Below are positions 21,339 through 47,924 of a DNA stretch of 58,310 bases, one piece after another. The translations under genes and the position numbers were made by a program. The notes below the pieces were generated by a model that saw only the letters and a list, made by a program, of their open reading frames with translations, had not been told where the DNA came from and did not search any database. The DNA is from Chrysophaeum taylorii (lineage: Eukaryota > Sar > Pelagophyceae > Pelagomonadales > Pelagomonadaceae), in NCBI GenBank assembly GCA_029834535.1, contig JAQMWT010000434.1:1-58310 (forward strand), in the 5' to 3' direction. Each line of letters begins with the position of its first letter. The first letter of the stretch is position 1.

Positions 21339-21340
21339 CC

Positions 21341-21654
21341 TGTGGCGTTAGGAGAATTTAGGCCTACCTGGCGTGCCTTCGAATCCTGGCTCGCCGCTCG
21401 CGTCCGTGCCCTTGATGGAGTCACTGGACGAGGATGGCCGTTCTCTCGCCACACAACCACAAACAACTTCCGTGCCTGGTCCTCACAACTTGAGGATCGG
21501 CTGTTGCTTTATGATTAAGAACACTTGAATCGCAGAAATCAGGGAAGATGATGTCATAAAGAAAACTGACATCATCAGAACGGAGTAGGGTGCCCCTGAT
21601 AAGGGGGGGGCCTAGAAGAGGGGTAAGGCTTAGGAGGCGGGAGTTGCCGCCACA
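21341..21654 (-). repeat. 5' LTR of Gypsy copy A
   Basis: The LTR runs (minus strand) from TGTGGCGGCAACTCCCG to TCCTAACGCCACA, with TGTGGCG/CGCCACA inverted termini. It matches LTRs at 26897, 36751, 37755 and 47591. The minus-strand segment immediately inside is the primer binding site. Confidence 0.9.
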
Positions 21655-26896: not shown

Positions 26897-27232
26897 TGTG
26901 GCGTAAGGAGAATTTAGGCCTACCTGGCGTGCCTTCGAATCCTGGCTCGCCGCTCGCGTCCGTGCCCTTGATGGAGTCACTGGACGAGGATGGCCGTTCT
27001 CCCGCCACACAACCACAAACAACTTCCGTGCCTGGTCCTCACAACTTGAGGATCGGCTGTTGCTTTATGATCAAGATATTATCGAAAAACAGAAATCAGG
27101 GTGACACATGTCACGGAAAAGGAAGATGATGTCATAAAGAAAACTGACATCATCATGACGGAGTAGGGTGCCCCTGATCAGGGGGTGGCCTAGAAGAGGG
27201 GTAAGCCGTAGGAGGCGGGAGTTGCCGCCACA
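26897..27232 (-). repeat. 3' LTR of Gypsy copy B
   Basis: The LTR has TGTGGCG...CGCCACA termini on the minus strand. Directly upstream in element orientation is a purine-rich CCAGGGGAGTCC (27233-27244) that fits the polypurine tract. Confidence 0.9.
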
Positions 27233-27314
27233 GGACTCCCCTGGTAAGAATTCGAGCTGCCCCAGCGAGGTGCTAGCCCCAGCGAGGTGCTAGCGCGAGG
27301 AGCGCGGCCTCGCC

Positions 27315-28559: not shown

Positions 28560-30837
28560 TAAAATCGTTCTTGGATAGCCTGGACGGTACTGTGACGTCC
28601 CATATGACCACCGTTAACCGGAGTGTCATGGTAGAGTCGAATAATGCGCTTGCGCAACGTAGCAGGTGCAACAATCATCGGGTGCAAATCAGCAGAAATG
28701 CGGCAAAGAACGTCTTTAACGACTTCGAATCGTTCGTTCGCTCGGGAACGTCGCGGCGTCTGACCTTGGGCCATTCGGTAGCGAATATCCTCGCAAGTAG
28801 CATCAGATTCTTGCTCACGTGCGATCTCAGCGAGCGTCATATTATCGGGTATCTTATCGATATAATCTTTGTAAGCGGCTGCGTCCTTGAAGATCTGTGG
28901 CTCATCGCGCGCACGGTTCTTCCGACGTTGTCTCGTAGCGTGAGACGTAGCCAGTTTCATCGGATCCTTTTCAGGGTCTTCGTCTTCGTCTTCCGGCAGT
29001 TCGGTCGTAACAAACGACATTATGAAGTGGCAGCCGGAAGCGGGAATTCCTCGGTCATCAACAGGTCGGGGAAGCTCTTGGAACACCAGATAAGCGTGGT
29101 TCAAAGGCTCTCCAAATTCGTCAGTCTCGATGACATGATCTATCGGATTGCGGGAGAGACAGTCAGGGATACTCATTCCCGGTGACTTTCCCGGTTTGTA
29201 ACCAAGTTCAGGGTCAAAATTGGCGAGGCGCATCGCCCAACGAGCAAGCTGCCCAGACGAGTGCGTCGCCTTACGTAAAAACGTCAAATTTCGGTGATCG
29301 GTCTCCAAACAGTCCGGTGCCCTTCGATGTAGGCTCGAAAGTGCTCTAGAGCAGTATAACTGCCGCAGCTCTAGCCGACGGGGCTCGTAATTGCGCATCC
29401 TTCGGCGCTCGGCTCCATATTCAATCACTCGTTCTTCTCGAGTCACTCTTCCGGCATCGTCCTTGACTTCGACAATCTGAGAGATGCTCCAAGTCCATCC
29501 TTGAAGCATCGGATCGGATCTGAAAAGGCGATCATAATCGGGGTGGTAGACTCCACGGGAATCAACCAAAGCTTCAATAATCGTATCCCGCTTGACACTC
29601 GGGCGTCCACTGAACTTTACACCTTCGAGGCATAATCGTCTCAGCGGTTCCACGATCTTCGAGCGCCCTTCGCTATCGCCGGCAAAACACCATGCCGATG
29701 AGAGCGTATCTGGGTCTTCGAAGTATTCGGCAAAGTACCTGGAATCGGCATCTTCTGCAGTGCTTCCAGCGTCTTCGGATTCGGCTTCAAGCCTTCTGGG
29801 GTCGAAATGTGTCCCAGAAATTCTATATCATCCTTGAGAAGGTGGAACTTCGCGGTTCGACCGCTGTACCCTCTCTGTGCCAAATGACACATCACTTCGA
29901 TCAAAACTTGTAAATGTCGATGAAGATCGTCGGATCCCATCATAATATCGTCAACAAACGCAACCAAGTCTCGATACATCCATTTCGAAAGGTCGCTCGC
30001 CATTTGCTTGCAGAAGAGCCCGGCCGTCTTCACACCTAGAGGTAATCGCAAGAAACTATGAGCGCCAAGTGGGCTAACCATCGTGACAGCGTCTTGCGCT
30101 GCCGGATCCAGACGAAGGTTGTGGTATCCCCATCTAATATCAATGCATGTCCGCCATCGTCGCATAGCGAGAAAAGCCATCATCTTGTCGAATGTTCGGC
30201 CAACTGTCATTGACCAATTGATCGTTGAGCTGACGTAAGTCAACTGCAGCACGGCGCGCGTTTGACGTTCCAATCTCAGCTCCTTTCTTCGGAAGCATCA
30301 ACACAGGAAAGCCCAAGGTGAGTTGGCCGGACGAATGACTCCATCCCGGCACCACTCGCTGATCTGCTTGCGGAGACAATCGAGCTTCGCAGGCGTCAAT
30401 CGGTAGGGCGTCATCTTAATCGGTCGCGGATTCGCGTCTTTGAATCGTAGAGACACAGGAGGTGAGTCCACGGTCTCATAATCGGGTCGAAAAAGGCCCA
30501 AGAATATTGCACACAGTGACGGAGCATCAGTTTCGCCTCGTCATCTAAGTGCGGATTGTCAGGAATTCCCTAGCTCCTGAACAACCTTGTCAACTTCTGC
30601 CTTTGTAGGTATTTGGACTTTCATTGCTTCGTTGTCCTTGACATGCTCAGGAGTTTGCGGCAGCGGTGCACCCTCAGCATCGCGCGGCGCATCTTTCCAT
30701 GGCACATCAAGCCTTTTCTCATATTTTAGTCTCACTTCCGGGTGGCTTTTGTTGATCCTCTCGCCTTTGACACGAACACTCGGCTCGCTCTTAATCTTCG
30801 GTTCCCGATCTCGCTCAGGATCTGGCGGAACGTCCAA
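28559..30837 (-). pseudogene. Reverse transcriptase and RNase H region, copy B
   Basis: Minus-strand frames 30837-30559, 30501-30298, 30379-30140, 30273-29641 and 29653-28559 align piecewise with the continuous RT/RNase H of copy C. AVDLRQLNDQLV, the catalytic DIRWGYHNL and FVDDIMMGS are present for RT. The RNase H part is recognisable at the TDHRNLTFL block but has lost residues in the DAS-containing block. At least four small indels break it. The frame ends in TAG right after QERF, exactly as in copy C, where a Tyr is expected in related integrases. Confidence 0.85.
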
Positions 30838-32111
30838 ATTTGGTTGTCGGGGGCAGCAGAAGAAGCATGAGACGTCCCCGGCTCATCTGTTGCAGGCGGA
30901 ATCAACGGTACCTCTGGAGGTTCCATTTGGTGCGATCTTGGAGATCATCAGTCGATACCCATCTTACGACACGCGTGCGCGTGTTTAACAGCGGAACTTG
31001 TACGTGACGAAGGGTGGTTTCATCAATTTGCAAAAATAATCAAACGGTCGGTCTGCAGGACTCAACGCCGACGGCGCTTCGCCGCTCAGGTGAAAATCCT
31101 TGGTCACAGAGTTGTGCAGATCGAGTACTCATAAGGTCATCGTGTCTGGTGGCACGACGGACGCCAAGTGTTTCAACGAGGTCGTCCTGAGAAGCCGGCC
31201 CAATCAAAATCAAGGGGCATTGTCAGCAACCTGAAGTCATTTTCAGATTCAGCCATCCGTAATCGGAACGGTGCGGTCCTACGCGAAGCGGGACACGCGT
31301 AACGGGTAAGCTGCGTCTGTCGCGGCTCGTGATGATCCTAAATTGTTCATCTGAAGAAATGTCGTTCGTCGGCGTAGCCGCTGCGGCGAACTCTGCTGCA
31401 TATTCTTAAGTCTTTGGAACTGCGCGCAAATGGAGCGGATGGCTGGAAACCAACAATCGCACGCTACAGCTCATCAAACTGGGCGTTATGTCGTAAAATT
31501 GACGACGCGCACGTAGGGTGCAAACGTGCAACGTAAGAAATAATCGGGCCTCCTGCTCTATCAACCACATGAAGAAACCAGCCATCTTGCATAATTTCAT
31601 CGTCCGTAGCGGTGACTCCTTCCCAACATCTCTGGAAGTCAAGTTGCACAGAGCGGAGTGTACGCAGGGTGGCGACGCGACACATCGACGACGACCATTC
31701 CGCGTAGGGTGTAATAAGATTCGATCAACCGTAAGGTTGTAACATAGCGACCACGCGTGTGCTGCACCACAGGAATATTCGGAAACTTATGGTGGATCTG
31801 GTTGGCGGTGTCCGACGCATCGAGTGCTAGCACGACTCGAAACGACGCCCACACATTTCGTTGGCTCGTTTGAGACCAAAGTACTGCCTCCGGCTCCACT
31901 GAACAGCATCACCACCTTGCGATAAGTGATTGGACGAACCGTATCGGCGGCGGATCTCCGCTTCGGTGATCTCGCGGCACTTTTTCATCTTCCGACCTTC
32001 GAGCAAAATCGTCGTCGCCTTCGGGTCGTTTGAGGGCGACTTGTCCGCCATAGCGGTCGTAGCGTCCTTCTGCGCCGTGCTCAGCAACATCGGCGGGGAG
32101 ACGCGTCGCAA
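30732..32111 (-). pseudogene. Cytosine-5 DNA methyltransferase region, copy B
   Basis: The same domain as in copies A and C is present but cut by many 1-5 base deletions into short frames (32111-31827, 31899-31639, 31685-31464, 31642-31406). The reading ASxPxCV around motif IV and the LLVSSHPLHL block after motif VIII are identifiable. The codon corresponding to the copy C TGA is GGA. The final segment (30926-30732) is open and in the same phase relation to the RT frame as in copy C, with the RT frame in the -1 phase. Confidence 0.75.
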
Positions 32112-32123
32112 TGCGTCAAATGA

Positions 32124-33197
32124 CTAGCGACGGAAACGGTGAAAGGCTGTTCCCTTGTCGTATCCTTCTTCACATTCTTTCGTAAGTTCGTTGATCGTAG
32201 AGACGTTCAACTCATCTTCGTACCTAACGATATCGCCAATCGCAAGGACTTCGCCTTGAGTGACGACCGTCGGCACTTCTTCCGCGGCAGTAACCGCAAC
32301 CCGAGCAGCGGATCGGTCGTGCTCTTCGCAAGAAGAACACATTCCTTCGACAACTCCCAACTGCTCGTTTTCAGCAAACGTAGCGACGAAAACCTGTCCC
32401 ATTTCCATAGGTTTCGACAAAATAACCGGTAGACATGTTCGACCGGGCTCGATTTGAAGCGTGCGCGCGTATGCCACTACTTCGCGCGCCTTCTCCGGAC
32501 CTGGGGAGAATTTGGTCGTAGCATGTCCCCGAGTAACCAAGGCTACCGTTCGTTCCGGCGGCGGGCTTCGGAGATCTTTAATCGTGCTCAAACGAGCGTA
32601 AACTCGAGTCTTGACCAGGTCGAGGCTCTTCCGAAAGGCATCGTGATGATTGTAAATCGTCACGGTTATCGGATCTCGATCGTAAATAGATCGAAAGGTC
32701 ACGATTGGTGCATCTATCCGTTCATCCTCGAACTTAATCTTCTTGCGCCCGTAGACGACTTGGGTTCGATAAAAACAGATTCGATCTTGGGGTAGTCCAC
32801 GACGGCTCCTAAAACTCGTATATCGCGCCCTCCCAACAGGAACAGATAGTTCGTATCGGCCACAATAGCGACAATGGGGGCGGCGATGTTGTCGGCGAGG
32901 GCGACCCGAATCGCGATCCAACGAAAGATCGTCGTCGTATTCAACCCTGATCCGTACAGCTTGCGCTTAATCGGAAGTTCGCCTTCATCGAAAATCAACT
33001 GATCTTTGGCCAACTTTCTGACCATTTCGGCAAATATAAGAAACATCCGCCATTCCATCGACACCGATGGTCGTCGAGAATTTCGGTCCGTCACGATTCC
33101 TGTAGATGTGACAGGCCATAAACGTAAGAGTACCCGTATCTAAACAACGGAGGGTAACCAAATCATCTTCGATCGTCTTGCCATCTCGCGGCGTCAA
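32124..33197 (-). pseudogene. Protease region, copy B
   Basis: Frames 33197-32985, 33094-32714 and 32921-32124 cover the protease region. IGVDGMADVSYI (divergent Asp-Thr-Gly site) and LLGGRDIRVLG are conserved. Two deletions break the frame near 33030 and 32790. The C-terminal part with CSSCEEHD continues to the start of the methyltransferase. Confidence 0.65.
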
Positions 33198-33777
33198 CGA
33201 AGTGTGAGCACACCGGCTCTGACTCGCTCATCTCCGGGTTGGGCATCGATACCGCGGCTTGAGCTCGTATCATCTGTTGTTGGCGTCATCGACGTAACGC
33301 TCGCGGCAGCCTTTATCTGGCGGCTTCCGCTCTTCCTCCAAGACAATCTCGAGGGAATCAGTGCTGGTAGGGATCCCGATCTTTGCTACTCTCGGAAGCG
33401 AAGGACCTCTCCCATAACTCATTCATTTCGTCTTTCCAGAATGCATCCGTAGATTCATTCGTCGTTGGTTGATCATCACCATCATCGGCGATCGGTTCCG
33501 TGTCGGCTGCGGCTTCGAGTCCGTAGCTGAGCGGTTGTTCTGGTGGCTTCTTTAGCAAGAAGTTCCGAGTTCTCGTCCACCAATCCTGCAGGTTCCACGT
33601 CGGCTCGTCTTCGTCCCAATTCAGAACGCTGCTAATCTTCTTCTTTAATCAATCCTTCTCTTCCGGCGGCGTGTCCATGGCTCGATCCGTCGTGACCGAA
33701 ACCACTTCGGGGGGGGGGCCGCAGGAAAAGATGGCGTCGTCCCCGACGTCAACTCTATCGTAAGATCGTCGTCTGCG

Positions 33778-35940
33778 TCACTCGCTCGCGATGGTCATCG
33801 TCTCGTCCGTCGAATGATCATCCGAGCTATCACTGCAGAAATCCATGTCTGGCTCACAGACAGTTCGGTCGCTAAAGGTCGTCCCTGGAGGGTCCAAAGA
33901 TAAGCCGATAGCGTCGAGGGCTTCCTCGTCAAAAACAAACGGTGCGTCGTCCGTGGACGACTCGTCAAGTAACGTTATCGCGGACACTGGTTCACAAGGT
34001 GTAGCTTCTTCATCTTCCGAATCTGAATCGCCTTCCCAGTATCGTGGAGCTTCGAGGTCCTCGCTCGAATCTTCGAGTTCATCGCTCGACATCTCTTCAT
34101 AAATCTGTGCCAAAGACCGACGATCGGTCAGCACATCGTTGGGTGGCTCGTCCATCGGCGGGCGAGCAAGATCTTCGAATGCGGCCGCGGCAAGGGCGTC
34201 GGCTGCATCGTCGGTGCGGGTGTCCGTGTTTGGGTACACCATCACTCCTAATGGTAACTGTTGACCGCAAGGGTTCGTAAACGCGAACGTTGCAGACGAA
34301 TGTCCCGAGTCTTCCCGGTAACGACCATCGTCCGAATTTCGATCGCGAGATCTTCGTCGCCGGCGGCGCCGGGAATGTCTGCTAGAGCTCCGGCTGTCTT
34401 TCCGTCGGCGCGGGCGCGAGCTGCTACGGCTCTTGTCGCGGCGTCGGGGGCTCCGGCTATCTCGACGGCCCGGTCGTGTCGAAGACGATCGGCCGTGTCC
34501 ATCTTTCAAGTGCTTCACGGAATCCATAACCGTGGTCAGCTGCGTGCCCATATCGTTGAGTCTGCTCTGAATGTCGTGAGCGGCGCTCGAACCGAGGGTG
34601 GCATTGGAACTGCCGTCGTCACGCGAATGACCATCTTTCTTGTGTCGGCTTTCCCATCGTCCTCGAGAGATGGGCTTTTTGCCGTCTTCGATGTACTTAC
34701 ACATCGCAACATAATAGTCGTCGGGCTCGCGGTTGCAAATGACCCGGTTCCCGCGTTCATCCTTGTCGTGGGTCGTTAAGAAAAACCCACACTCCTTGCA
34801 TGTGCTCTCGAACCACTTCTTCGGATTATCTTCGAGACGCAATGCTTCATATTTCGTCGTTTTATCTTTCGTTCCCGAGGCGAGCGCCCGTCCTCCGCGT
34901 CCAGACGGTGGCTTCTGCGGCTTCGCGCCCGACGGATTCGTTGAATTTCGGCTGTTCTTCTCCGCCATTGCGGTTGCGAAATCGTTCTCGAGCCGCGTAA
35001 TCAATGACAACGTAGACGTAAACGTTTTATACGTCGTCGGGTGCCCGCTGCGCATGGTTCGCACGCGGGATTTCAAATCGCTGGACTCCAGTCCACGTAT
35101 CAAGTAAGAGATGATCTCCACATCGTTGAGATCTCGGTTGGCCACAGAACAGTACGCCATGGCCTCTTTCTGAAATTTGATGCAATACGTATGTACGTGG
35201 CGTTCCCCAGAGCGTTTCGGAACGGTCGCTTGGGTCGTGCATTGCAATTTTCGTAGCGATTCCTCTGCCGTCACCGGCAGTGGGCAACTCTCTCGGAAAT
35301 ATTTAAAAATCTTGAGGCAGTACTTCTCGTTCAGTCGTCGTAATCGTCGTACCACTGAACCGTACTCCTCATCGTCGATATCCCGACGTAAATAAAAAGA
35401 CGCTGGGTGATCGAGATCTTTACACAGGTCTTCGTACTTCTTCAAGTGTTCTCGAAAAATTGGTGCGACTGTGTCGCGCAAACTCGCGGGCAACAGGTAC
35501 CGCAGTTTCTCCATGCTAAAATGGTCTTCGGCTAACGTACTCATCACTGCGCCCGCATCTAAATCGAACTGGCCCTGGTCGCGTCTATCAAGAACCAGTT
35601 TAAAAGTTTCGGTCTTTAATCCGGAGGTCGATCGCCGCTCCTTGTTGCGATCGTGTTTACCTAACGCGCTGGCGAACCGATCCGTGAAGCCCATCAAGAA
35701 CTCTTGGGTGTCGATCCTTCCGTCGCCACGCGTCTCCTCCTTTTCTTCGTCATCGTCGTCTTCATAGCGCGGCTTCCTAGCCTTCGCGCGTGATCGTGTA
35801 GTTGGCGGCTCTTCCTCAGCTCGGGACCCCGGACTGCTCGCTCGCCTCGATTGACTCGGCGTACGTAGCTCGTCCCTTTCTCGGGTTAGATAATTTACTT
35901 GATCCTGGAGGTCGTCTGCTCGAGCGTTGGCCCTCCGCAC
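33778..35940 (-). CDS. Gag with capsid-like, Cys/His and SR-rich regions, copy B
   Basis: This 720-codon frame forms the best preserved Gag. In order it has: a coiled-coil end (DLQDQVNYLTRERDELRTPS); an acidic linker; a helical capsid-like region at about residues 120-340 with the retrotransposon Gag signature around NDVEIISYLIRGL; and a Cys/His cluster near residue 400 (CKECGFF, then H and C). A strongly Arg/Ser-rich domain near residues 500-565 (DSRSSSRHSRRRRRRRSRD) and an acidic C-terminus shared with copies A and C follow. Gag would form the particle and bind RNA. The SR-rich block may replace the usual CCHC knuckle as RNA binder. The upstream frame 36502-35816 overlaps and carries the N-terminus, so one frame break lies near 35900-36000. 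Confidence 0.75.
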   Translation of the reverse strand: MRRANARADDLQDQVNYLTRERDELRTPSQSRRASSPGSRAEEEPPTTRSRAKARKPRYEDDDDEEKEETRGDGRIDTQEFLMGFTDRFASALGKHDRNKERRSTSGLKTETFKLVLDRRDQGQFDLDAGAVMSTLAEDHFSMEKLRYLLPASLRDTVAPIFREHLKKYEDLCKDLDHPASFYLRRDIDDEEYGSVVRRLRRLNEKYCLKIFKYFRESCPLPVTAEESLRKLQCTTQATVPKRSGERHVHTYCIKFQKEAMAYCSVANRDLNDVEIISYLIRGLESSDLKSRVRTMRSGHPTTYKTFTSTLSLITRLENDFATAMAEKNSRNSTNPSGAKPQKPPSGRGGRALASGTKDKTTKYEALRLEDNPKKWFESTCKECGFFLTTHDKDERGNRVICNREPDDYYVAMCKYIEDGKKPISRGRWESRHKKDGHSRDDGSSNATLGSSAAHDIQSRLNDMGTQLTTVMDSVKHLKDGHGRSSSTRPGRRDSRSPRRRDKSRSSSRPRRRKDSRSSSRHSRRRRRRRSRDRNSDDGRYREDSGHSSATFAFTNPCGQQLPLGVMVYPNTDTRTDDAADALAAAAFEDLARPPMDEPPNDVLTDRRSLAQIYEEMSSDELEDSSEDLEAPRYWEGDSDSEDEEATPCEPVSAITLLDESSTDDAPFVFDEEALDAIGLSLDPPGTTFSDRTVCEPDMDFCSDSSDDHSTDETMTIASE

Positions 35941-36750
35941 TTGCTCTCTTAATTCTTCGGCCTCCTTCCGTTGTAGCCGCTCCTTTCGATCGTTTTCTTC
36001 CGCCGCCTTGTTGCCTTTTCCTGCGAACGTTCGTTTTCTTCACGTAACGCCCGCAAATGAGCCTCGCAACCCGTTCATTTTCGTTGCGTCCGGGGGTCGT
36101 GCCCGCGTTGACGGCTGTCGGTCGTCCTCCTGACGGTCTCTCCGTCGGTTCGCCGGTGTTGTAGTCTCGCTCTTCTTCCTCGTTGTCAACTTTCAGTGTC
36201 GTGCTCTCTTCATCATCATCATCATCATCATCGTCATTCCTCTCGCTCGTCTCATCCTGTCGGCGTGGCGGTTCGTCGTATCGCGTCTGCTCGTCGGCAG
36301 CATCATCGTCTTCCATATCGGCACTGGCTCGTTCTAGTCGGCCGAGATCAGAGCGGGTCCAGAATGGTTGTCGTCGTCGTTCTTGTGCTCCTTCGACTGG
36401 ACTTCTACTCGTCCACGACGCGTAATATCGTCGTCGCGCGTCTTCCACCGACCGATCTATCAGTCCGGTGGGCGGCAGAATCTGTCTCTGCCCGGCAATC
36501 AATCCTCGTGAGTTGCGATCTCACTCCGCTCGCCTGCGGCAGCGGTGCCCGGGTTGCGCGTCGGCTAGAACCGAATCGCGCGTCGTCACCTGACGATCAA
36601 CGTATCCGGCCGGAAACTTTCCCACGGCGTGGTCCCAATTCTTGTCGCGCGCTTGATCAGGCGCGCACGGCTTGTCCGCACCGTGCGCGAGGATGCACGA
36701 TACTGTCCGCTGCGACCGATATGGTCGCTCGAACTCGTATTCCTTCCACC

Positions 36751-37085
36751 TGTGGCGTTAGGAGAATTTTGCGCCTACCTGGCGTGCCTTCAACCTGGCT
36801 CGCCGCTTGCGTCCGTGCCCTTGATGGATCACTGGACGAGGATGGCCGTTCTCCCGCCACACAACCACAAACAACCGTGCCTGGTCCTCACAACTTGAGG
36901 ATCGGCTGTTGCTTTTATGATCAAGATATTATCGAACAACGCAGAAATCAGGGGCACGTCACGAAAAGGAAAGATCTTCATGTCATAGCCAAAAACCGCA
37001 TATCACGCTACGGAGTAGGGTGCCCCTGATAAGGGGGGGGGGGTAGAAGAGGGGTAAGCCTTAGGAGGCGGGAGTTGCCGCCACA
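36751..37085 (-). repeat. 5' LTR of Gypsy copy B
   Basis: The 335 bp LTR has TGTGGCGG...CGCCACA termini. It is followed on the plus strand by the TCGAA duplicate (37086-37090). It differs from its partner at 26897 by numerous small indels. The primer-site segment lies at 36729-36748. Confidence 0.9.
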
Positions 37086-37754
37086 TCGAACACGCCGGAA
37101 TCTTCCTCGCAAAAACCAACATCCAGCCCATCTCCTAACCACCATCATCCCCCATCAATGCCCCTCTCGAACACAAACCTTCTTCCAACACCTTCGCAAA
37201 ACCCTCATCGCATTCATTACAACCCCCAGCATTTGCCCTACGTCACGTCATTCGCAACGCACTTAATACACGGAAAGCCCCCATCAACAGTCCCAGCGTT
37301 AGCCCTTCTTGATTGTCGGAGTATGAAATGGGACGTGCCACCATTCGTTTCGTGTTCCTCCATTCGTCAATATATGTCCATGCGTTTATATTACAAAAAT
37401 TAGAATTATTCTTTTATATGTGCCCTTTAAGAGGTGCAAATTGTTATATGTGATTTTAAAAATAAAATTGGTATATGTAAACCGCTTAACCCTATATTGT
37501 TTATAAGTGTCATTTAGATACATGTAATTGTTAAAAGTGTCACTACTATAACGAAATTGGTGTAGAGGCCGCTATTGTAAAATATTGTAATAAGTGTCAC
37601 AGCCTTTTGTACAATTGTTATAAGCGTCATTTTTTTTCTGGTAAAATATTTTTTAGCGTCACACTTTTTTTAAAATTGTATTGTAAATAAGTGTCACAAG
37701 TTTGAGTTGCTTCACATTGCTTTCCTTACCCCTGGTGGTTACCCCCTTCGGTAC
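37086..37754. other. AT-rich spacer with TTATAAGTGTCAC repeats
   Basis: Up to 37136 it continues the interrupted ORF. From 37380 to 37735 the DNA becomes AT-rich with at least six degenerate copies of TTATAAGTGTCA at 30-50 base spacing. The inverted form of this motif recurs at 51.1-51.2 kb and 51.55-51.76 kb. No gene is seen. Confidence 0.6.
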
Positions 37755-38090
37755 TGTGGCGTAAGGAGAATTTAGTGGCTACCTGGCGTGCCTTCGAATC
37801 GTGGCTCGCCGCTCGCGTCCGTGCCCTCGGTGGAGTCACTGGACGAGGATGGCCGTTCTCCCGCCACACAACCACAAACAACTTCCGTGCCTGGTCCTCG
37901 CAACTTGAGGATCGGCGGTTGCTTTATGATCAAGATATTGCCGAAACACAGAAATCAGGGTGACACATGTCACGGAAAAGGAAGATGATGTCACAAAGAA
38001 AACTGACATCATCAGAACGGAGTATGGTGCCCCTGATAAGGGGGGCCCTAGAAGAGGGGTAAGCCTTAGGAAGCGGGAGTTGCCGCCACA
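37755..38090 (-). repeat. 3' LTR of Gypsy copy C
   Basis: 336 bp with the family termini. The polypurine tract CCAGGGGAGTCC lies at 38091-38102, immediately before the LTR in element orientation. Confidence 0.9.
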
Positions 38091-38130
38091 GGACTCCCCT
38101 GGTAAGAATTCGAGCTGCCCCAGCGAGGTG

Positions 38131-39552
38131 CTAGCGCGAGGAGCGCGGCTTCGCCTTACGAGCATCTCGTGAACGAATCTTCTGGTAAACGCGGGTGATG
38201 ACCGGTTCAGGAACTCGGCCACTGCGCAAAGTAAACTTGGGAATCAACACATCAATCTCGTGCGGAGCGAAATCCGTGACACAAGGAGTTGTGTTGGAGG
38301 AAATTCTGGACTTGTCGGTGAAACTTCGACCTTCAACGTCCTTGAACTCGGGTTTGAGCTTGCGGTGCGAAAGGTGAGAGGTCGGCTTGAAATAAGCGAC
38401 ATCATCGTTCGGACCCAAATCGGAGTAGAAATGTAGAGCAACACGATCATTTTGGTAATCGCAAGGCCCATAAACTTCAGCAACATAAATCTTCTTGCGC
38501 CAATCAGAGCGCTTCCGGTCAGGAATCCGGAAAACAACAAACTTACCGTGCTGATAATCATCACGGAAGGTTTCTTCGGGTTTGCGGATGGCTTGATCAA
38601 CGATCGGAGGTACCATCACAGGCGTGATCTGACTTACATGAACACGTCGTTCTTCGGGCGGAGAGTCGAGAGACTCAATCCTATAGGTGACCGGGGAAAG
38701 GCGTTCCTTGATAATAAACGGCCCTCGCCATTCCGGTCGAAGTTTGTTCTGATGGAAAGGAATGTAGAGCAAAACGTGTGATCCTTCCTTGTATTCAACA
38801 TCAACATGATCGGCATTGTAGGCCAATCTTTGTTTCTTCAAAGCTTTATCACGAGCCTCGTGGACGATCTTCGTATAATACTTCAATCGTTCACGAGTTT
38901 CGGCGACTGCATCAGAGCGAGTCTTCGGCAATAATCGCGTATCAAGGTCCATAAGCGTGTAGTCAGTCGGCAGCATCGGCTGACGGTTCAGGCGCAGCAT
39001 AAAGGGAGAAATCTGCGTGCCTGGAATAAACTTGCGGTTATAACAAAACGCAATATAATGGGCAAAGTCGGGCCAATCCGTGATGTTCCGGCCCTGAAGG
39101 CAAGCACGGAGGAAGGCCTTGATAAATCGGTTAACACGCTCAGCCGGGTTCGACTGGGCATGATAAGGAATCGTAGTTTGGTATCGTGTATTGAAGAGAT
39201 GGCAAAACTCGCGCATCAACTTGTTCACGAACTCTTTACCGTTGTCGGTACGAATCATCTGGGGCAAGTAGCCCTTGAGGAGGATGTTAATGACAAAAGA
39301 CTCGAGGACAGACTCGGCAGTCTTGTCGTTCAAAACATCCAGAATCAAGAAATGCGAGAACGGATCAAAAAATACTAGAAGATACGTCTCGGGACCAGCG
39401 CTGGGCAAGGGTCCAAATAAATCCATGCAAAGAACAGCACCATCACCATCGTAGACGGGCTGCTGCAAGAGTCCAGCTCGTTTCGGCTCCGGCGTACGAG
39501 CTTTCTGGCAAACTAAAAACTCGGCAATGAAGACTCCAACTTCGTTCGACAT
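38131..39552 (-). CDS. Integrase, copy C
   Basis: The 473-codon frame begins with ATG two codons after the TAG that ends the RNase H frame and lies in the same phase. It covers the rear of the zinc-binding domain, where LVCQKAR has the second Cys but Phe in place of the first. The catalytic core has D44 (MDLFGPL), D103 (RTDNGKEF) and E138 (NPAERVNR). The C-terminal part has a GPF motif (EWRGPFIIKERL). After that, residues about 300-390 (GKFVVFRIPDRKRSDW and VALHFYSDLGPNDD) form an extra conserved module of SH3/chromo-barrel character. Such modules can target integration in some Gypsy elements, but this is inference. The core residues are intact; the N-terminal domain is compromised. Confidence 0.88.
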   Translation of the reverse strand: MSNEVGVFIAEFLVCQKARTPEPKRAGLLQQPVYDGDGAVLCMDLFGPLPSAGPETYLLVFFDPFSHFLILDVLNDKTAESVLESFVINILLKGYLPQMIRTDNGKEFVNKLMREFCHLFNTRYQTTIPYHAQSNPAERVNRFIKAFLRACLQGRNITDWPDFAHYIAFCYNRKFIPGTQISPFMLRLNRQPMLPTDYTLMDLDTRLLPKTRSDAVAETRERLKYYTKIVHEARDKALKKQRLAYNADHVDVEYKEGSHVLLYIPFHQNKLRPEWRGPFIIKERLSPVTYRIESLDSPPEERRVHVSQITPVMVPPIVDQAIRKPEETFRDDYQHGKFVVFRIPDRKRSDWRKKIYVAEVYGPCDYQNDRVALHFYSDLGPNDDVAYFKPTSHLSHRKLKPEFKDVEGRSFTDKSRISSNTTPCVTDFAPHEIDVLIPKFTLRSGRVPEPVITRVYQKIRSRDARKAKPRSSR

Positions 39553-39561
39553 GTGAGGCCA

Positions 39562-41871
39562 CTAAAATCGTTCTTGGATAGCCTGGACGGTGCTGTGACG
39601 TCCCATATGACCACCGTTAACCGGAGTGTCATGGTAGAGTCGAATAATGCGCTTGCGCAACGTAGCAGGTGCAACAATCATCGGGTGCAAATCAGCAGAA
39701 ATGCGGTAAAGAACGTCTTTAACGACTTCGAATCGTTCGTTCGCTCGGGAACGTCGCGGCGTCTGACCTTGGGCCATTCGGTAGCGAATATCCTCGCAAG
39801 TAGCATCCGATTCTTGCTCACGTGCGATCTCAGCGAGCGTCATATTATCGGGTATCTTATCGATATAATCTTTGTAAGCGGCTGCGTCCTTGAAGATCTG
39901 TGGCTCATCGCGCGCACGGTTCTTCCGACGTTGTCTCGTAGCGTGAGACGTAGCCAATTTCATCGGATCCTTTCAGGGTCTTCGTCTTCGTCTTCCGGCA
40001 GTTCGGTCGTAACAAACGACATTATGAAGTGGCAGCCGGAAGCGGGAATTCCTCGGTCATCAACAGGTCGGGGAAGCTCTTGGAACACCAGATAAGCGTG
40101 GTTCAAAGGTTCTCCAAACTCGTCAGTCTCGATGACATGATCTATCGGATTGCGGGAGAGACAGTCAGGGATACTCATTCCCGGTGACTTTCCCGGCTTG
40201 TAACCAAGTTCAGGGTCAAAATTGGCGAGGCGCATCGCCCAACGAGCAAGCTGCCCAGACGAGTGCGTCGCCTTACGTAAAACCGTCAAATTTCGGCGAT
40301 CGGTCTCCAAAACAGTACGGTGCCCTTCGATGTAGGCTCGAAAGTGCTCTAGAGAAAGTATAACTGCCAGCAGCTCTAACCGACGGGGCTCATAATTGCG
40401 CATCTCCTTCGGCACAGCTCGGCTCCAATATTCAATCACTCGTTCTTCTCGAGTCACTCTTCCGGCATCGTCCTTGACTTCGACAATCTGGAAGAGATAT
40501 GCTCCAAGTCCATCCTTGGAAGCATCGGATCGGATCTGGCAAGCCAGATCATAATCGGGGTGGTAGACTCCACGGGAATCAACCAAAGCTTCAATAATCG
40601 TATCCCAAGCTTTCTGACACTCGGGCGTCCACTCGAACTTTACACCTTCGAGGCATAATCGTCTCAGCGGTTCCACGATCTTCGAGTAGCCCTTCACATA
40701 TCGCCGGCAATAATTACTCATGCCGATGAAAGAGCGTATCTGGGTCTTCGGGGAAGTATTCGGCCTGGAATCGGCATCTTCTGCAGTGCTTCCAGCGTCT
40801 TCGGATTCGGCTTCAAGCCTTCTGGGGTAGAAATGTGTCCCAGAAATTCTATATCATCCTTGAGAAGGTGGAACTTCGCGGTTCGACCGCTGTACCCTCT
40901 CTGTGCCAAATGACACATCACTTCGATCAAAACTTGTAAATGTCGATGAAGATCGTCGGATCCCATCATAATATCGTCAACAAACGCAACCAAGTCTCGA
41001 TACATCCATTTCGAAAGGTCGCTCGCCATTTGCTTGCAGAAAGAGCTCCGGCCGTCTTCACACCTAGAGCCAATCGCAAGAAACTATGAGCGCCAAGTGG
41101 GCTGACCATCGTGACAGCGTCTTGCGCTGCCGGGTCTAGACGAAGGTTGTGGTATCCCCATCTAACATCGAGGCATGTCCGCCATCGTCGCATGGCGAGA
41201 AAAGCTAAAGCATCATCTTGTCGAATGTTCGGCCAACTGTCATTGACCAATTGATCGTTGAGCTGACGTAAGTCAACTGCAGCACGGAACGCGTTTGACG
41301 TTCCAATCTCAGCTCCTTTCTTCGGAAGCATCAACACAGGAAAGCCCCAAGGTGAGTTGGCCGGACGAATGACTCCATCCCGGCACCACTCGCTGATCTG
41401 CTTGCGGAGACAATCGAGCTTCGCAGGCGTCAATCGGTAGGGCGTCATCTTAATCGGTCGCGGATTCGCGTCTTTGAATCGTAGAGACACAGGAGGTGAG
41501 TCCACAGGCCTCATAATCGGGTCGAAAAAGGCCCAAGAATACTGCACACAGTGACGGAGCATCAGTTTCGCCTCGTCATCTAAGTGCGGATTGTCAGGAA
41601 TTCCCAGCTCCTGAACAACCTTGTCAACTTCTTCCTTCGTAGGAACTTGAACTTTCATAGCTTCATTATCCTTGACATGCTCGGGAGTTTGCGGCAGCGG
41701 TGCACCCTCAGCATCGCGCGGCGCATCTTTCCATGGCACATCGAAATTTTTCTCATATCTTAGTCTCACTTCCGGGTGGCTTTTGTTGATCCTCTCGCCT
41801 TTGACACGAACACTCGGCTCGCTCTTAATCTTCGGTTCCCGATCTCGCTCAGGATCTGGCGGAACATCCAA
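39562..41871 (-). pseudogene. Reverse transcriptase and RNase H, copy C
   Basis: Frames 41871-40966, 41029-40718, 40721-39960 and 39963-39562 make up RT, RNase H and the linker to integrase. RT blocks: VIRPANSPWGFPVLMLPKK, AAVDLRQLND, catalytic LDVRWGYHNL and FVDDIMMGS. RNase H blocks: RSDASKDGLGAYL, LELLAVILSLEHFRAYI and LETDRRNLTVL. The linker ends with the HDTPVNGGHMGRH half of the integrase zinc domain and TAG after QERF. Single-base differences from copy B near 41040, 40720 and 39965 break the frame. The 5' end overlaps the methyltransferase frame in the -1 phase near a C run at 41883-41894. Confidence 0.88.
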
Positions 41872-42386
41872 ATTTGGTTGTCGGGGGGGGGGGGAGCAAA
41901 AGAAGCGTGAGACGTCCCCGGCTCATCTGTTGCAGGCGGAATCAACGGTACCTCTGGAGGTTTCCATTTGGTGCGATCTTGGAGATCATCAGTCGACACC
42001 CATCTTACGACACGTGTGCGCGTGTTTAACAGCGGAACTTGTACGTGACGAAGGGTGGTTTCATCAATTTGCAAATAATAATCAAACGGTCGGTCTGCAG
42101 GACTCAACGCGGACGGCAAAGCTTCGCCGCTCAGGTGAAAATCCTTGGTCACGGAGTTGTGCAGATCGAGTACTAATAAGGTCATCGTGTCTGGTGGCAC
42201 GACGGACGCCAAGTGTTTCAACGAGGTCGTCCTGGAGAAGCCGGCCCAATCAAAATCAAGGGGCATCGTCAGCAACTCCGAAGTCATTTTCAGATTCAAA
42301 GATCTGTAATCGGAACGGTGCGGTCCTACGCGAAGCGGGACACGCGTAACGGTATAAGCTGCGTCTGTCGCGGCTCGTGATGATCA
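41766..42386 (-). CDS. Methyltransferase C-terminal part and linker, copy C
   Basis: This segment continues the 692-codon frame after its TGA, in the same phase, up to 41766. It contains LNLKMTSELLTMPLDFDW, which fits motif IX, and LASVVPPDTMTLLVLD, which fits motif X, the final SAM-pocket block of cytosine-5 methyltransferases. Copies A and B have GGA where copy C has TGA, so the stop at 42384-42386 looks like a copy-specific mutation (one base) and the native domain extends across it. The rest is a linker (residues with FHLSGEALPS and LQDRTKWKPPEVP) leading to the -1 phase RT frame. Confidence 0.65.
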
Positions 42387-44462
42387 TAAATTGTTCATCT
42401 GAAGTAAATGTCGTTCGTCGGCGTAGCCAAGTGCTGCGGCGAACTCTTGCTGCATATTCTTGCAGGTCTTCGGAACTGCGCGCAAATGGAGCGGATGGCT
42501 GGAAACCAACAATCGCACGCGACAGCTCATCAAACTGGGCGTTATGTCGTAAAAATTGACGACGTACACGTAAGGGTGCAAACGTGCAACGTAAGAAATA
42601 ATCGAAGCCTCCTGCTCTATCAACCACATGAAGAAACCAGCCATCTTGCATAATTTCATCGTCCAGTGGGTAGCGGTGACTCCCTTGCCAACATCTCTGG
42701 AAGTCAAGTTGCACAGAGCGGAGTGTACGCAGGGTGGCGACGCGACACACATCGACGACGACCATTCCGCGTAGGGTAAATAAGATTCGATGAACCGTAA
42801 GGTTGTAACATAGCGACCACACAGTGTGTGCTGCACCACTGGAATGTTCGGAAAATTCTTATGGTGGATCTGGTTGGCGGTGTCCGACGCATCGAGTGCT
42901 AGCACGATTCGAAACGACGTCCCACACAATTCGTTGGCTCTTTTGAGACCTAAAGTACAGCCTCCGGCTCCACTGAACAGCATCACCACCTTGCGATAAG
43001 TGATTGGAAGCCATTGAACCTTTTCGTATCGGCGGCGGATCTCCGCTTCGGTGATCTCGCGGCACTTCTTTTCATCTTCTTCCGACCTTCGAGCGAAATC
43101 GTCGCTGCCTTCGGGTCGTTTGAGGGTGGACTTGTCCGCCATTGCGGTCGTGGCGTCCTTCTGCGCCGTGCTCAACAACATCGGCGGGGGAGATGCGTCG
43201 CAATGCGTCAAATTATTAGCGACGGAAACGGTGAAAGAAAGGTTCCCCTTGTCGTATCCTTCTTCACATTCTTTCCTAAGTTCGTTGATCGTAGAGACGG
43301 TCAACTCATCTTCGTACCTAACGATATCGCCAATCGCAAGGACTTCGCCTTGAGTGACGACCGTCGGCACTTCTTCCGCGGCAGTAACCGCAACCCGAGC
43401 AGCGGATCGGTCGTGCTCTTCGCAAGAAAAACACATTCCTTCGACAACACCCAACTGCTCGTTTTCAGCAAACGTAGCGACGAAAACATGTCCCAGTTCC
43501 ATAGGTTTCGACAAAATAACCGGTAGATTGTAAGTTCGACCGGGCTCGATTTGAAGCGTGCGCGCAGCGTATGCCACTACTTCTCGCGCGCCTTCTCCCG
43601 GAGCTGGGGACAATTTGGTCGTAGCATGTCCCCGCGTGGCCAGGGCTACCGTTCGTTCCGGCGGCGGGCTTCGGAGATCTTTAATCGTGCTCAAACGAGC
43701 GTAAACTCGAGTCTTGACCAGGTCGAGACTCTTCCGAAAGGCATCGTGTTGATGATTGTAAATCGTCACGGTTATCGGATCTCGATCGTAAATAGATCGA
43801 AAGGTCACGATTGGTGCATCAATTCGTTCATCCTCGAACTTAATCTTTTTGCGCCCGTAGACGACTTGGGTTCGATAAAAACAGATCCGATCGTGGGGGT
43901 GGTCCACGACGGCCCCTAAAACTCGTATATCGCGCCCTCCCAACAGGAACAGATAGTTCGTATCGGCCACAATAGCGACAATGGGGGCAGCGATGTTGTC
44001 GGCGAGGGCGACCCGAATCGCGATCCAACGAAAGATCGTCGTCGTATTCAACCCTGATCCGTACAGCTTGCGCTTAATCGGAAGTTCGCCTTCATCGAAA
44101 ATCAACTGATCTTTGGCCAACTTTCTGACCATCTCTCGGCAAATATAAGAAACATCCGCCATTCCATCGACACCGATGGTCGTCGAGAATTTCGGTCCGT
44201 CACGATTCCTGTAGATGTGACAGGCCATAAACGTAAGAGTACCCGTATCTAAACAACGGAGGGTGACCAAATCATCTTCGATCGTCTTGCCATCTCGCGG
44301 CGTCAACGAAGTGTGAGCACATCGGGCTCTGACTCGCTCATCTCCAGGGTTGGGCATCGATACCGCGGCTTGAGCTCTCGTATCATCTGTTGTTGGCGTC
44401 ATCGACGTAACGCTCGCGGCAGCCTCTTTATCTGGCGGCTTTCCGCTCTTCCTCCAAGACAA
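42384..44462 (-). CDS. Protease-DNA cytosine methyltransferase polyprotein, copy C
   Basis: The 692 codons fuse two enzymes. Residues 96-180 carry the protease-like motifs IGVDGMADV and LLGGRDI. Residues 490-660 are the catalytic core of a cytosine-5 DNA methyltransferase. Motif I is LFSGAGG (495-501), which binds SAM, and motif II is ALDASD (522-527). Motif IV is ASPPCVHSA (574-582) with nucleophile Cys578, the motif VI candidate is WLIEQEA (613-619), and the motif VIII-like block SCRVRLLVSS starts at 646. The part between (200-480) is conserved in all copies but unrecognised; no BAH or replication-foci domain is evident. The frame overlaps Gag in the +1 phase and precedes RT in the -1 phase. 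This domain could methylate element cDNA or host DNA. Precedents exist in dinoflagellate and charophyte retrotransposons. Confidence 0.85.
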   Translation of the reverse strand: MSWRKSGKPPDKEAAASVTSMTPTTDDTRAQAAVSMPNPGDERVRARCAHTSLTPRDGKTIEDDLVTLRCLDTGTLTFMACHIYRNRDGPKFSTTIGVDGMADVSYICREMVRKLAKDQLIFDEGELPIKRKLYGSGLNTTTIFRWIAIRVALADNIAAPIVAIVADTNYLFLLGGRDIRVLGAVVDHPHDRICFYRTQVVYGRKKIKFEDERIDAPIVTFRSIYDRDPITVTIYNHQHDAFRKSLDLVKTRVYARLSTIKDLRSPPPERTVALATRGHATTKLSPAPGEGAREVVAYAARTLQIEPGRTYNLPVILSKPMELGHVFVATFAENEQLGVVEGMCFSCEEHDRSAARVAVTAAEEVPTVVTQGEVLAIGDIVRYEDELTVSTINELRKECEEGYDKGNLSFTVSVANNLTHCDASPPPMLLSTAQKDATTAMADKSTLKRPEGSDDFARRSEEDEKKCREITEAEIRRRYEKVQWLPITYRKVVMLFSGAGGCTLGLKRANELCGTSFRIVLALDASDTANQIHHKNFPNIPVVQHTLCGRYVTTLRFIESYLPYAEWSSSMCVASPPCVHSALCNLTSRDVGKGVTATHWTMKLCKMAGFFMWLIEQEASIISYVARLHPYVYVVNFYDITPSLMSCRVRLLVSSHPLHLRAVPKTCKNMQQEFAAALGYADERHLLQMNNL

Positions 44463-44474
44463 TCTCGGAGGGAA

Positions 44475-46748
44475 TCAGTGCTGGTAGGGGATCCCGATCT
44501 TCGCTATTCTCGGAAGCAAAGGACCTCCCCATAACTCATTCATTTCGTCTTTCCAGAATGCATCTGTAAATTCATTCGTCATCGGTTGATCATCACCATC
44601 ATCGGCGATCGGTTCCGTGTCGGCTGCGGCTTCGAGTCCGTAGCTGAGCGGTTGTTCTGGTGGCTTCTTTAGCAAGAAGTTCCGAGTTCTCGTCCACCAA
44701 TCCTGCAGGTTCCACGTCGGCTTGTCTTCGTCCCACTCGAGAACGCTGCTAATCTTATTCTCAAATCTACCCTTTTCTTCCGGCGGCGTGTCCGTGGCTC
44801 GATCCATCGAAACCGTTTCGGGGGGGTCCGCAGGAAAAGATGGCGTCGTCCCCGACGTCAACTCTATCGTAAGATCGTCGTCTGCATCACTCGCGGTGGT
44901 CATCGTCTCGTCAGTCCAATGAGCGCACGAGCCATCACTGCAGAAATCCATGTCTGGCTCACAGCCAGTTCGGTCGCCAAACGTCGTCCCTGGAGGTTCC
45001 AAGGATAAGCCGATGGCGTCGAGGGCTTCCTCGTCAAAAATAAACGGTGGGTCGTCCGTGGACGACTCGTCAAATAACGTTATCGCGGACACTGGTTCAC
45101 AAGGTGTAGCTTCTTCATCTTCCGAATCTGAATCGCCTTCCCAGTACCGAGGAGCTTCGAGTTCATCGCTCGAATCTTCGAGTTCATCGCTCGGCATCTG
45201 CTCATAAATCTGTGCCAAAGACCGACGATCGGTCAGCACGTCGCTGGGTGGCTCGTCCATCGGCGGGCGAGCAAGATCTTCGAATGCGGCCGCGGCAAGG
45301 GCGTCGGCTGCGTCGTCGGTGCTGGTGGCCGTGTTCGGGTACACCATCACTCCTAATGGTAACTGTTGACCGCAAGGGGTCGTAAACGCGAGCGTTGCGC
45401 TCAAAAAACCCAATTTATATTGGTGTCGGCCTCCGTCGTATTCGTCGTCGCGCGATCGGCGTCGTCTGTGCCGGCGCGAACTTCGACTGGGGCTCTTGTT
45501 ATCTTTGTCTCTCTCTGGCGTCAGTTCGGCAGGTCCTATTACCTCTGGATCGTCCCTGTAGGCGACTGGTGCTCCAAAGCCTATCCGAACTGTCTCAATC
45601 GTCTCGTCTATCGAAACATCGACACATGCGTCGTCTTCTTGCCAAAACTCCGACCAAACGTAAATTCAATCTCCGTTGGCGAATAAATCCATGCCCCGGG
45701 GTCGGAATTGCACTTCTTTCCGCTCTGGCGGTTTCTTTCTCAGGAAACAGTGAGCTCGTATCCATATCGTCGGTACGCTCATCTTCCTCTTATCCATGCT
45801 GATCGTCCCATCCAAATTCGATTCCGGGCGGCAGCTATACTCATCCCTCATGGTATGTTCGGGATCGTTCTTTATCACATAGCCAGCATCATATGCAGGC
45901 TGAAAATCTTTGAACTCTTCGTTCGTGAGTAATACGCCAGGGCTTTCACTGAGTTCCAAGGGCAGTTCATGCGTTATAAGATTCTTCACCTCTTCCGCTT
46001 TCGTATTCATTTTCTCGGCCGTTTCACCCGGCCTATCATCCACGCCATCGCTTAGAATATCGGCAATCGCCTCGTCACTAAAAATGTCGGCACACGAAAT
46101 GTCTGCCATCGTCAAAGGGAACAAAACATCTGCAAAACCGTCTGCAATCGGTTCGTCGGGGGGCCCTGTAAAAGAGGAAGGCGTCGCCCCCGACGTCATA
46201 TCTGTCAAAAAATGGCCACAAAAGGGCACGTGACGTTCGATGGGCGTGTACACAGGTGTGCGCTTATCATTCGAGGTAATCCTCTGCGACGCATCGTTGA
46301 TCGATCGTGGAGACGAAGTGCCATCCACTTGAATGTCCGGAGGTAGACTCATAGCATCGAGCGTAGCAGCGGCGGGTCCATTCCTTTGGGCGTCATCGGC
46401 TGCACGGGGCTCGTAAATCGGATTCACACATAACTCCGGCGCGTCGTCAAAACCGAGGGTTGTGTCAGCTGACGACAAATCATATCATGCCACCAACGGT
46501 GACACCGGGTCAGAAGCGGCTGTCGGCTTCGGCCCGTAGTTTAACGACGTTTCGGTCAGATTCTCCGATTCTGTGTCTTCTCCCTCAAGACTGCTCGCTC
46601 GCCTCGGGCGACTCGGCGTACGCAATTCATCCCTCTCGCGGGTCAACCATCGTACTTGCTCGTGTATTTTATCTAATCGAGCGTGTTCGTGCCGCATTTG
46701 CTCTTGCATTATTTTTATCTTCTTCCGGTGTAGCGATTCACGCCGCAT
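44475..46748 (-). pseudogene. Gag, copy C
   Basis: Three frames belong together. 46748-46485 is the coiled-coil end (RWLTRERDELRTPSRPRR) closing with TGA. 46478-45666 follows in the same phase without an ATG and starts SSADTTLGFDDAPELC. 45413-44475 has the conserved PCGQQLPLGVMVYPN and acidic C-terminus. An Arg/Ser block lies between the last two, around 45450-45500. As in copy A there is no capsid-like region of the copy B type. A one-base loss near 44526 shifts the end of the frame away from the phase that overlaps protease in copy A. Confidence 0.7.
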
Positions 46749-47219
46749 CTCCTCTTCTATCAGCTGGATGAGGATTTCTTGTGCGCGCTTATTTTCTCGG
46801 CGTATCTCGCGTAAATGGGCTTTGTAAATCTTTGCAACATGGATGAGGATTTCTTGTGCGCGCTTATTTTCTCGGCGTATCTCACGTAAGTGGGCTTTGT
46901 AAATCTTTGCAACATTCGGTGGTTCATCACCTCGCGCACGTTCTGGACGGGCTGCCGGCTGTCTCGCCGGCGGCGCCCTCGGCAGTTCATCGCCGTTGTA
47001 GTTCAGCTCTTCTTCCTCATCATCATAATCATTATCATGATCATCGTTCCCCTCGCTCGTCTCATCCTGGCGGCTTGGCGGTTCGTCATATCATAGCTGC
47101 TCGACGGCAGCCTCATCGTCTTCCATATCGGCTCTGGCTCGTTCTAGTCGGCCGAGATCAGAGCGGGTCCAGAATGATTGAGTCGTCGTCGTTCTCGTGT
47201 TCCTTCGACTCTGGGACTT

Positions 47220-47717
47220 CTACTCGTCCACGACACGCGTAATATCGTCGTTGCGTGCGTCTTCCACCGACAAATCTATCAGTCCGGTGGGCGGCAGAAT
47301 TCGTCCCTGCCCGGCAGTCAATGCCTTATCAGTGAGTTGCGATCTCACTCCGCTCGCCTGCGGCAGCGGTACCCGGGTTGCGCGTCGGCTAGCACCGAAT
47401 CGCGCGTCCTCACTTCCGACGACAAACGTAACGGCCGGGGAACTTTCCCACGGCAGTGGTCCTTCTGGAATTCCTTGTCGGCGCGCTTGATCAGGGCGCG
47501 CACGGCTTGTCCAGACCGTGTAGAGAATGCAAGATGCACTCGTTCGCTGCGACCGATATAGTCGCTCGAATCTCGTATTCCTCCACCACCTGTGGCGTAA
47601 GGAGAATTTAGGGGCTACCTGGCGTGCCTTCGAATCGTGGCTCGCCGCTCGCGTCCGTGCCCTTGGTGGAGTCACTGGACGAGGATGGCCGTTCTCCCGC
47701 CACACAACCACAAACAA
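47220..47717 (-). other. Leader ORF starting in the 5' LTR, copy C
   Basis: A 165-codon frame begins inside the LTR (FVVVWRENGHPRPVTP), crosses the primer site and ends after DLSVEDARNDDITRVVDE. A closely related frame exists in copy A (21466-20972). In copy B the corresponding frame runs on into the Gag N-terminus (36502-35816). It may simply be the open 5' leader, or the true N-terminus of Gag with frame damage. Confidence 0.35.
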
Positions 47718-47922
47718 CTTCCGTGCCTGGCCTCACAACTTGAGGATCGGCTGTTGCTTTATGATTAAGATATTATCGAAACACAGAAATCAGGGTGACA
47801 CATGTCACGGAAAAGGAAGATTATGTCATAAAGAAAACTGACATCATCAGAACGGAGTAGGGTGCCCCTGATAAGGGGGGCAGAAGAGGGGTAAGCCTTA
47901 GGAAGCGGGAGTTGCCGCCACA
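47591..47922 (-). repeat. 5' LTR of Gypsy copy C
   Basis: 332 bp with TGTGGCGG...CGCCACA termini. About ten substitutions and two small indels separate it from its partner at 37755. The primer-site segment lies at 47568-47588. Confidence 0.9.
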
Positions 47923-47924
47923 GG

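Follow-up and report, generated by a model that had tools for sequence, protein, structure and literature searches.

A cytosine-5 methyltransferase domain between protease and reverse transcriptase in a Ty3/Gypsy retrotransposon family of the alga Chrysophaeum taylorii

Retrotransposons that carry the very class of enzyme that usually silences them present a paradox. The closest described case is KnitGypsy-Dnmt3 of Klebsormidium nitens, a Gypsy element with a DNA methyltransferase (DNMT) in Pol; dinoflagellates hold SymbioDIRS-Dnmt3 and SymbioLINE-Dnmt, and the enzymes of the former carry out de novo CG methylation, self-methylation of complementary DNA (cDNA) having been proposed for them (all PMC5890265). 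DNMT3 members are also described in long terminal repeat (LTR) Copia and in DIRS elements of streptophytes and dinoflagellates (PMC12344493). Here we analyse a 58,310-base contig of Chrysophaeum taylorii (JAQMWT010000434.1; the whole stretch is termed the window), which carries three copies, A to C, of a Ty3/Gypsy family whose Gag-Pol encodes a cytosine-5 methyltransferase (MTase) domain between protease and reverse transcriptase (RT).

The principle of a DNMT in Gypsy Pol is not new, since KnitGypsy-Dnmt3 is known. The two are alike in being LTR Gypsy elements with the DNMT in the Pol open reading frame (ORF), multicopy and under purifying selection; but KnitGypsy-Dnmt3, as PMC5890265 presents it, is of Dnmt3 type, has a DIRS-like repeat arrangement and resides in a charophyte, of the plant lineage, whereas the element of this alga has ordinary LTRs, 5-bp duplications and an ASPPC motif IV, and its host, unlike Klebsormidium, has DNMT5 and a red-type rbcL. 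With the dinoflagellate elements of the same source it shares the presence of many-copy retrotransposon DNMTs in two element classes per host; those classes are DIRS and LINE, these Ty3/Gypsy and Ty1/Copia, a distinction drawn from description, not sequence. The features by which PMC5890265 characterises DNMT-encoding retrotransposons—a DNMT in an element ORF, multiple copies, purifying selection—are all found here. The precedents in dinoflagellates and charophytes to which a preliminary description of the window had appealed are real; what differs here is that an enzyme of a different type has been captured, and that a Copia family of this genome has acquired an MTase as well. Among the matches listed there was no published report of this Gypsy family, of the enzyme type, of the host lineage or of the pairing of Gypsy with Copia. 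With what appears to be a third host lineage, an enzyme of another type and captures in two LTR superfamilies of a single genome, the pattern looks like a recurrent strategy rather than a peculiarity of two lineages.

Position, motifs and conservation of the domain

The arrangement of the element is seen unbroken in copy L039 (the C5 copy), which is one open frame of 3063 residues (aa). Over the 2890 of these that were read, Pfam domains follow in the order PF00145 (1443-1498), RVT_1 (1997-2161), RT_RNaseH, Integrase_H2C2 and rve, the first scoring 18.6 bits, below its whole-protein cut-off of 22. The order RT - RNase H - integrase, with an RT_RNaseH of Gypsy type, places the element in Ty3/Gypsy, and the repeats conform, with TG...CA ends and a short target-site duplication (TSD; 5/5 bases in copy B, 4/5 in copy C).

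All features of the MTase elements in the window are on the minus strand. Copy C is about 10.2 kb long (37754-47924, LTRs of 335-339 bp), and its MTase domain, motifs I to X, occupies 42084..43013, between protease and RT. Motif searches and translation place motif I, the S-adenosylmethionine (SAM)-binding LFSGAGG, at 42960..42980, a motif II-like LALDASD at 42882..42902 and motif IV, ASPPC with the catalytic Cys, at 42729..42743, all in a single 692-aa ORF (42384-44462) together with the protease-like region. Motif VI is represented by a Glu 38 residues past the Cys (42615..42617), in EQE where ENV is usual; blocks resembling motifs VIII, IX and X follow motif IV, the first of them R-V-R at 42513..42521, placed by spacing, conservation among copies and translation, the last VVPP at 42192..42203, placed by a viral profile (below), copy conservation and translation. 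In copy A the first three motifs lie in one frame, at 16090-16110, 16012-16032 and 15859-15873; in copy B they are spread over two, at 31886-31906, 31810-31830 and 31664-31678, so that copy B is frameshifted. The preliminary description had read a methyltransferase inside Ty3/Gypsy pol, between protease and RT and in frame with protease in copy C, with these motifs in order in all three copies and continuing in copy C to IX- and X-like blocks. That reading holds, except that an in-frame TGA (42384-42386), between motifs VIII and IX, splits the domain of copy C; with this stop and a later frame change before RT, the window copy is broken.

Recognition of the domain by Pfam depends on motif I. 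PF00145, the profile check named in the preliminary description, matches all 22 copies of an alignment (A1) made from 30 fetched copies after removal of any that contained a stop or matched incompletely; the best E is 1.1e-6, and the stretches displayed are motif I only. The window ORF by itself scores 20.2 bits against the same cut-off of 22. NCBIfam dcm is matched by two copies at E 0.0016-0.0017 (18 bits, cut-off 100.65). The best profile matches are the viral/bacterial-type cytosine-5 MTases of PHROG 363 and 116, at E 1.3e-6 to 1.5e-6, again at motif I and in two copies other than the window's. A match of 21 of the 22 copies to PF16334 (DUF4964; best E 0.0027) was taken as chance, the displayed copy scoring 15.5 against a cut-off of 30.7.

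Since Pfam is blind beyond motif I, we built a profile from viral cytosine-5 MTases: 36 ORFs among the 80 viral loci listed by a DNA pattern scan. As that pattern demanded ASPPCQ-type codons, the agreement at motif IV partly reflects how the ORFs were selected. The Gypsy domain matches the profile in two blocks, I-IV and then IX-X, at 27.0 bits, whereas no score above 3.5 came from 2000 shuffles; residues 120-330, from which motifs I-IV are absent, still reach 12.0 bits, the highest score among 5000 shuffles being 2.5. Among the 22 copies of A1, scores range from 14.4 to 28.5 bits. When the same ORF was cut into 24 tiles, the five that substantially overlap the domain scored 10.6-26.9, 16 scored 0.6 or less and three gave no row; nor did the reversed domain. 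The order of motifs IV, VIII and X arose in none of 20000 shuffles, with a pattern composed after the sequence had been seen.

The family is large. In the genome surveyed (70.8 Mb, 697 contigs) the 692-aa ORF has at least 69 matches, as the family survey suggested in the preliminary description now makes plain, at about 64 places by hand count, because certain rows represent fragments of the same copy. By hand count among the matches listed, 40 rows span the whole ORF (start at 7 or before, end at 691 or after), 30 stop-free, and two family matches belong to uninterrupted frames of 3063 and 3067 aa. With a 421-aa RT/RNase H query, 99 matches were scored, at 93-100% identity; with many copies near-identical at RT, the family has been recently active. 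Contigs matching at RT and unlisted for the MTase had suggested sister elements that lack it, but this idea was dropped: the only one checked, C331, has the domain, and MTase match counts are therefore lower bounds.

Selection was estimated in 30 copies (L009-L038, one of them the window copy), whose pairs are not independent, from the ratio of nonsynonymous to synonymous substitution (dN/dS). The median for the MTase is 0.233 (433 of 435 copy pairs), compared with 0.172 for RT (367 pairs) and 0.544 for the end of gag (370 pairs); other pairwise medians are 0.572 before the protease, 0.281 for the protease, 0.312 for the spacer and 0.221 after the methyltransferase. Pooled ratios of nonsynonymous to synonymous differences (pN/pS) are 0.243, 0.265 and 0.583 for MTase, RT and gag-end. 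Every FSGAGG residue is kept in 29-30 of the 30 copies, and none of the 30 departs from PPC of motif IV with its catalytic Cys, from the motif VI Glu, from R-x-R or from VVPP. Purifying selection thus maintains the MTase domain across a large family. The conserved 250-residue region that the preliminary description had set before the domain corresponds, by eye, to protease plus protease-RT spacer; it is constrained, at dN/dS 0.28-0.31, less tightly than the MTase at 0.23. The domain, its position, its conserved catalytic residues, the large family with near-identical members and the purifying selection are together established, in our judgement, with high confidence.

Relatives, a second family and the host enzymes

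Motif IV sets the Gypsy enzyme apart from Dnmt3 and from the host DNMT5. PCN in motif IV is a Dnmt3 trait; the Gypsy family has ASPPCVHSA and no PCN, and its ASPPCV contrasts with GTSCVDYS in the DNMT5 of the host. The spacing from motif I to Cys, Glu and R, 82/38/32, is close to what the host enzymes show (65/41/41 in Dnmt2, 78/41/37 in DNMT5) and compares with 75/40/42 in the Copia MTase described below. With viral MTases the domain shares motifs I-IV and IX-X, ASPPC (which the scan pattern demanded) and EQ variants of motif VI; it differs in being fused into a retroelement polyprotein, and identity is 13-23% in a rough alignment with 27 of the 36.

Closer relatives were sought in a protein database: the 692-aa ORF had no match among 8000 candidates scored, the 22-row domain alignment none up to E 10 among 8000, and residues 1000-1930 of the long ORF none among 4638. 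A scan of viral contigs with two short peptide patterns found no relative of the Gypsy MTase, and a PDB profile search with the domain gave nothing meaningful, the best hit (E 0.12) being an unrelated protein. In a 30-row tree, made of 26 of the 36 viral enzymes (10 removed by hand) with Dnmt2, DNMT5, Copia and Gypsy, the Gypsy domain falls beside DNMT5 with support 39 and the Copia MTase elsewhere with support 19. The phylogenetic comparison with host enzymes that the preliminary description had envisaged was thus made, with Dnmt2 and DNMT5, but at such support it does not place the captures, and the origin of the Gypsy domain is left open by the tree. For the suggestion, made at the same time, that this may be an independent capture, the ASPPC in place of PCN and the absence of relatives among the candidates scored speak in favour.

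The genome holds a second such family. A six-frame, intron-blind search with PF00145, of which the best 123 of 474 candidates were scored, gave 57 places: host Dnmt2, host DNMT5 and 55 others. Twenty-nine of the 55 overlap matches of a Copia family and 24 more overlap a divergent branch of it, by hand reading of the table; the places outside both branches are C216:62478 and C589:13495. A representative element (L045, G000:C314:150500-158500, at 201-5807 on the minus strand) has the Ty1/Copia order: a protease-like DGGAS, the MTase (TLPCQ, ENV; PF00145 E 5e-7), an integrase-like region recognised by eye, and RVT_2 (E 9.5e-28). A query from the divergent branch returned 130 match rows, and the Copia MTase region has a median dN/dS of 0.179 (119 pairs, 17 loci; L004 and L046 are the same copy). 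Profile comparison of the Gypsy with the Copia MTase found no similarity, a PDB search with a 245-aa piece around the Copia MTase no match, and a scan of viral contigs with six short peptide patterns no relative of it. In both families the enzyme is placed behind the protease and ahead of the next pol enzyme. This would be explained most simply by two captures made separately.

Of host enzymes, DNMT5 (L002) matches PDB 7r76, labelled Rad8, at E 3e-143, an entry we take to be Cryptococcus Dnmt5, and Dnmt2 (L001) matches 1g55 at E 3.9e-39. An SRA domain has only one host match (L056, G000:C594:64137-64520; E 1.1e-13), in a 909-aa open frame, making this protein a candidate partner of DNMT5. No further DNMT outside the elements, de novo enzymes included, was recognised with PF00145 in six frames among the best 123 of 474 candidates, a search that, being intron-blind and so bounded, could miss a host gene. 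DNMT5 is described as a maintenance enzyme, without de novo activity in Cryptococcus, its preferences elsewhere being undetermined (PMC9246332). If the host has a maintenance enzyme only, whether the elements write marks that the host copies becomes directly testable.

Two observations concern the host genes. The Dnmt2 gene (L001, plus strand, from 1498) stands head to head with a gene for a light-harvesting protein (minus strand, from 1455), leaving 42 bases between the assumed start codons (1455-1498); the latter protein matches chlorophyll a/c-type proteins among others. The best PDB matches of the host rbcL protein (L044) are 7yk5, 5mz2, 5n9z and 5oya, presumably diatom enzymes of red type. 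Taken together, these two proteins point to a host that is probably an ochrophyte.

Possible roles of the enzyme

The explanation we incline to, role included, is that a Ty3/Gypsy element captured a cytosine-5 MTase domain, now encoded in Gag-Pol between protease and RT. By analogy, self-methylation of the element's cDNA would be its likeliest role, a proposal for and against which we feel about evenly balanced; the preliminary description had likewise supposed that the element could methylate its own cDNA or chromatin close by. The MTase would be translated as part of the Gag-Pol polyprotein—in-frame coding and selection make this the one step demonstrated—and freed when the protease cuts it; it would then travel with RT inside the particle and methylate the double-stranded cDNA ahead of integration. 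New insertions would thereby arrive premethylated, the mark being copied by the host DNMT5/SRA machinery, and premethylation might conceal the cDNA from surveillance directed at unmethylated DNA or determine the chromatin state of the fresh insertion. A broader version, in which new methylation stems mainly or wholly from mobile elements, Gypsy and Copia MTases laying the first marks and host DNMT5/SRA copying them, we think unlikely.

Several results weigh against an active enzyme of this kind. Motif VI lacks the Asn and Val of ENV, though its Glu is near the expected spacing; the target-recognition region is short and unrecognised; in the two copies tested, Pfam finds no methyltransferase once motif I is removed; and an AlphaFold2 model of the domain, built on a 2-row alignment, has a mean predicted local distance difference test (pLDDT) score of 29.4 and is unusable. 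Nor is there a footprint: the CpG observed/expected ratio over copy C is 1.28, which is no depletion, and transition rates over the 30 copies are 0.0261 at CpG, 0.0242 at CHG and 0.0224 at CHH, so hardly raised at CpG that there is no trace of heavy methylation. Low methylation of the copies, repair of deaminated sites or the youth of the family could each account for this.

One alternative is that the MTase fold acts, like Dnmt2, on RNA: the genomic RNA, the tRNA primer or an RNA:DNA hybrid. The solved relatives of Dnmt2 bear the name tRNA (cytosine(38)-C(5))-methyltransferase; the Gypsy profile matches host Dnmt2 (46 columns, 33% identity, E 0.0019, probability 14%) better than it does DNMT5; and SymbioLINE-Dnmt gave no DNA methylation in yeast, according to PMC5890265. 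The Dnmt2 match is, however, limited to motif I and of low probability, and the viral profile that recognises the domain derives from DNA-methyltransferase-type proteins, so that we consider an RNA substrate improbable. To much the same degree we doubt that the domain is catalytically dead and retained as a SAM-binding, nucleic-acid-binding or structural part of the polyprotein: the change from ENV to EQE and the strong divergence between motifs would fit, but all 30 copies retain the catalytic Cys, the Glu and R-x-R without exception, and EQV commonly replaces ENV in the 27 aligned viral enzymes. Methylation might instead be a restraint, whether through silencing by the element of the copies it has just made or through a benefit to the host, with damage limited and the family kept viable. 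This role has been proposed (PMC5890265) and would suit a numerous family; the near-identical RT of many copies points to recent activity, and we hold restraint to be distinctly improbable. That the motifs arose by chance in a retroelement spacer that encodes no methyltransferase is very improbable indeed, for although the window ORF falls short of the PF00145 cut-off and structure prediction is uninformative, it is contradicted by the shuffle and tile controls, by purifying selection and by matches in three profile libraries.

Other features of the window

The 3' LTR of copy C (37754..38092, TG...CA ends) is 95.9% identical to the 5' LTR (47590..47924) by self-blastn of the window; their Kimura two-parameter (K2P) distance is 0.031, and the 5-bp flanks, GGTAC and GGTAT, are alike at four of five positions. 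Between them, all on the minus strand, are integrase and the C-terminal part of pol (38131..39561; rve E 1.6e-12, Integrase_p58_C 2e-6), the RNase H part (39960..40853; RT_RNaseH E 8e-24 on 39960-40721) and a piece comprising spacer and RT start (40966..41922), which is in another frame than the MTase ORF; without a Pfam match itself, it is the counterpart of the L039 RVT_1 (residues 1997-2161, E 7.2e-12). A run of 12 G at 41883-41894, in the MTase-RT spacer near the frame change, may reflect genuine slippage or else a fault of the assembly.

The retropepsin-like protease region of copy C (43839..44321) was recognised by eye from CLDTGT, VDGMADVSYI and LLGGRDIRVLGAVVDH; a Pfam search with the protease piece of L039 gave no match. 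Judged by distance to LLGGRD, the active site would be VDGMAD instead of D-[ST]-G, with no Pfam match there, and about 30 residues further upstream the region also contains a standard DTG, in CLDTGT; each position of VDGMADVSYI is kept in 29-30 of 30 copies. The gag-like N-terminal region (44475..47090) is broken into three ORFs in copy C and is within the single open frame in L039. Adjoining the 5' LTR, a stretch starting TGG (47565..47588) looks like a primer-binding site; the same stretch adjoins the LTR of copy A at 21315-21338.

Copy B (26897..37085) has LTRs at 26897-27234 and 36750-37085 (K2P 0.078), an exact 5-bp TSD, TCGAA, and the frameshifted MTase; copy A (15323..21654, LTR 21341-21654) breaks off, truncated, close to where the MTase domain ends. 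A separate element, on the plus strand at 52161-57502, has 127-bp LTR-like repeats 98.4% identical by self-blastn and a single ORF of 1624 aa, whose only Pfam match is a weak RVT_2 (E 4.2e-5, below cut-off). Degenerate short repeats of the type CAGTAAGTTCACC occupy 57591-57934.

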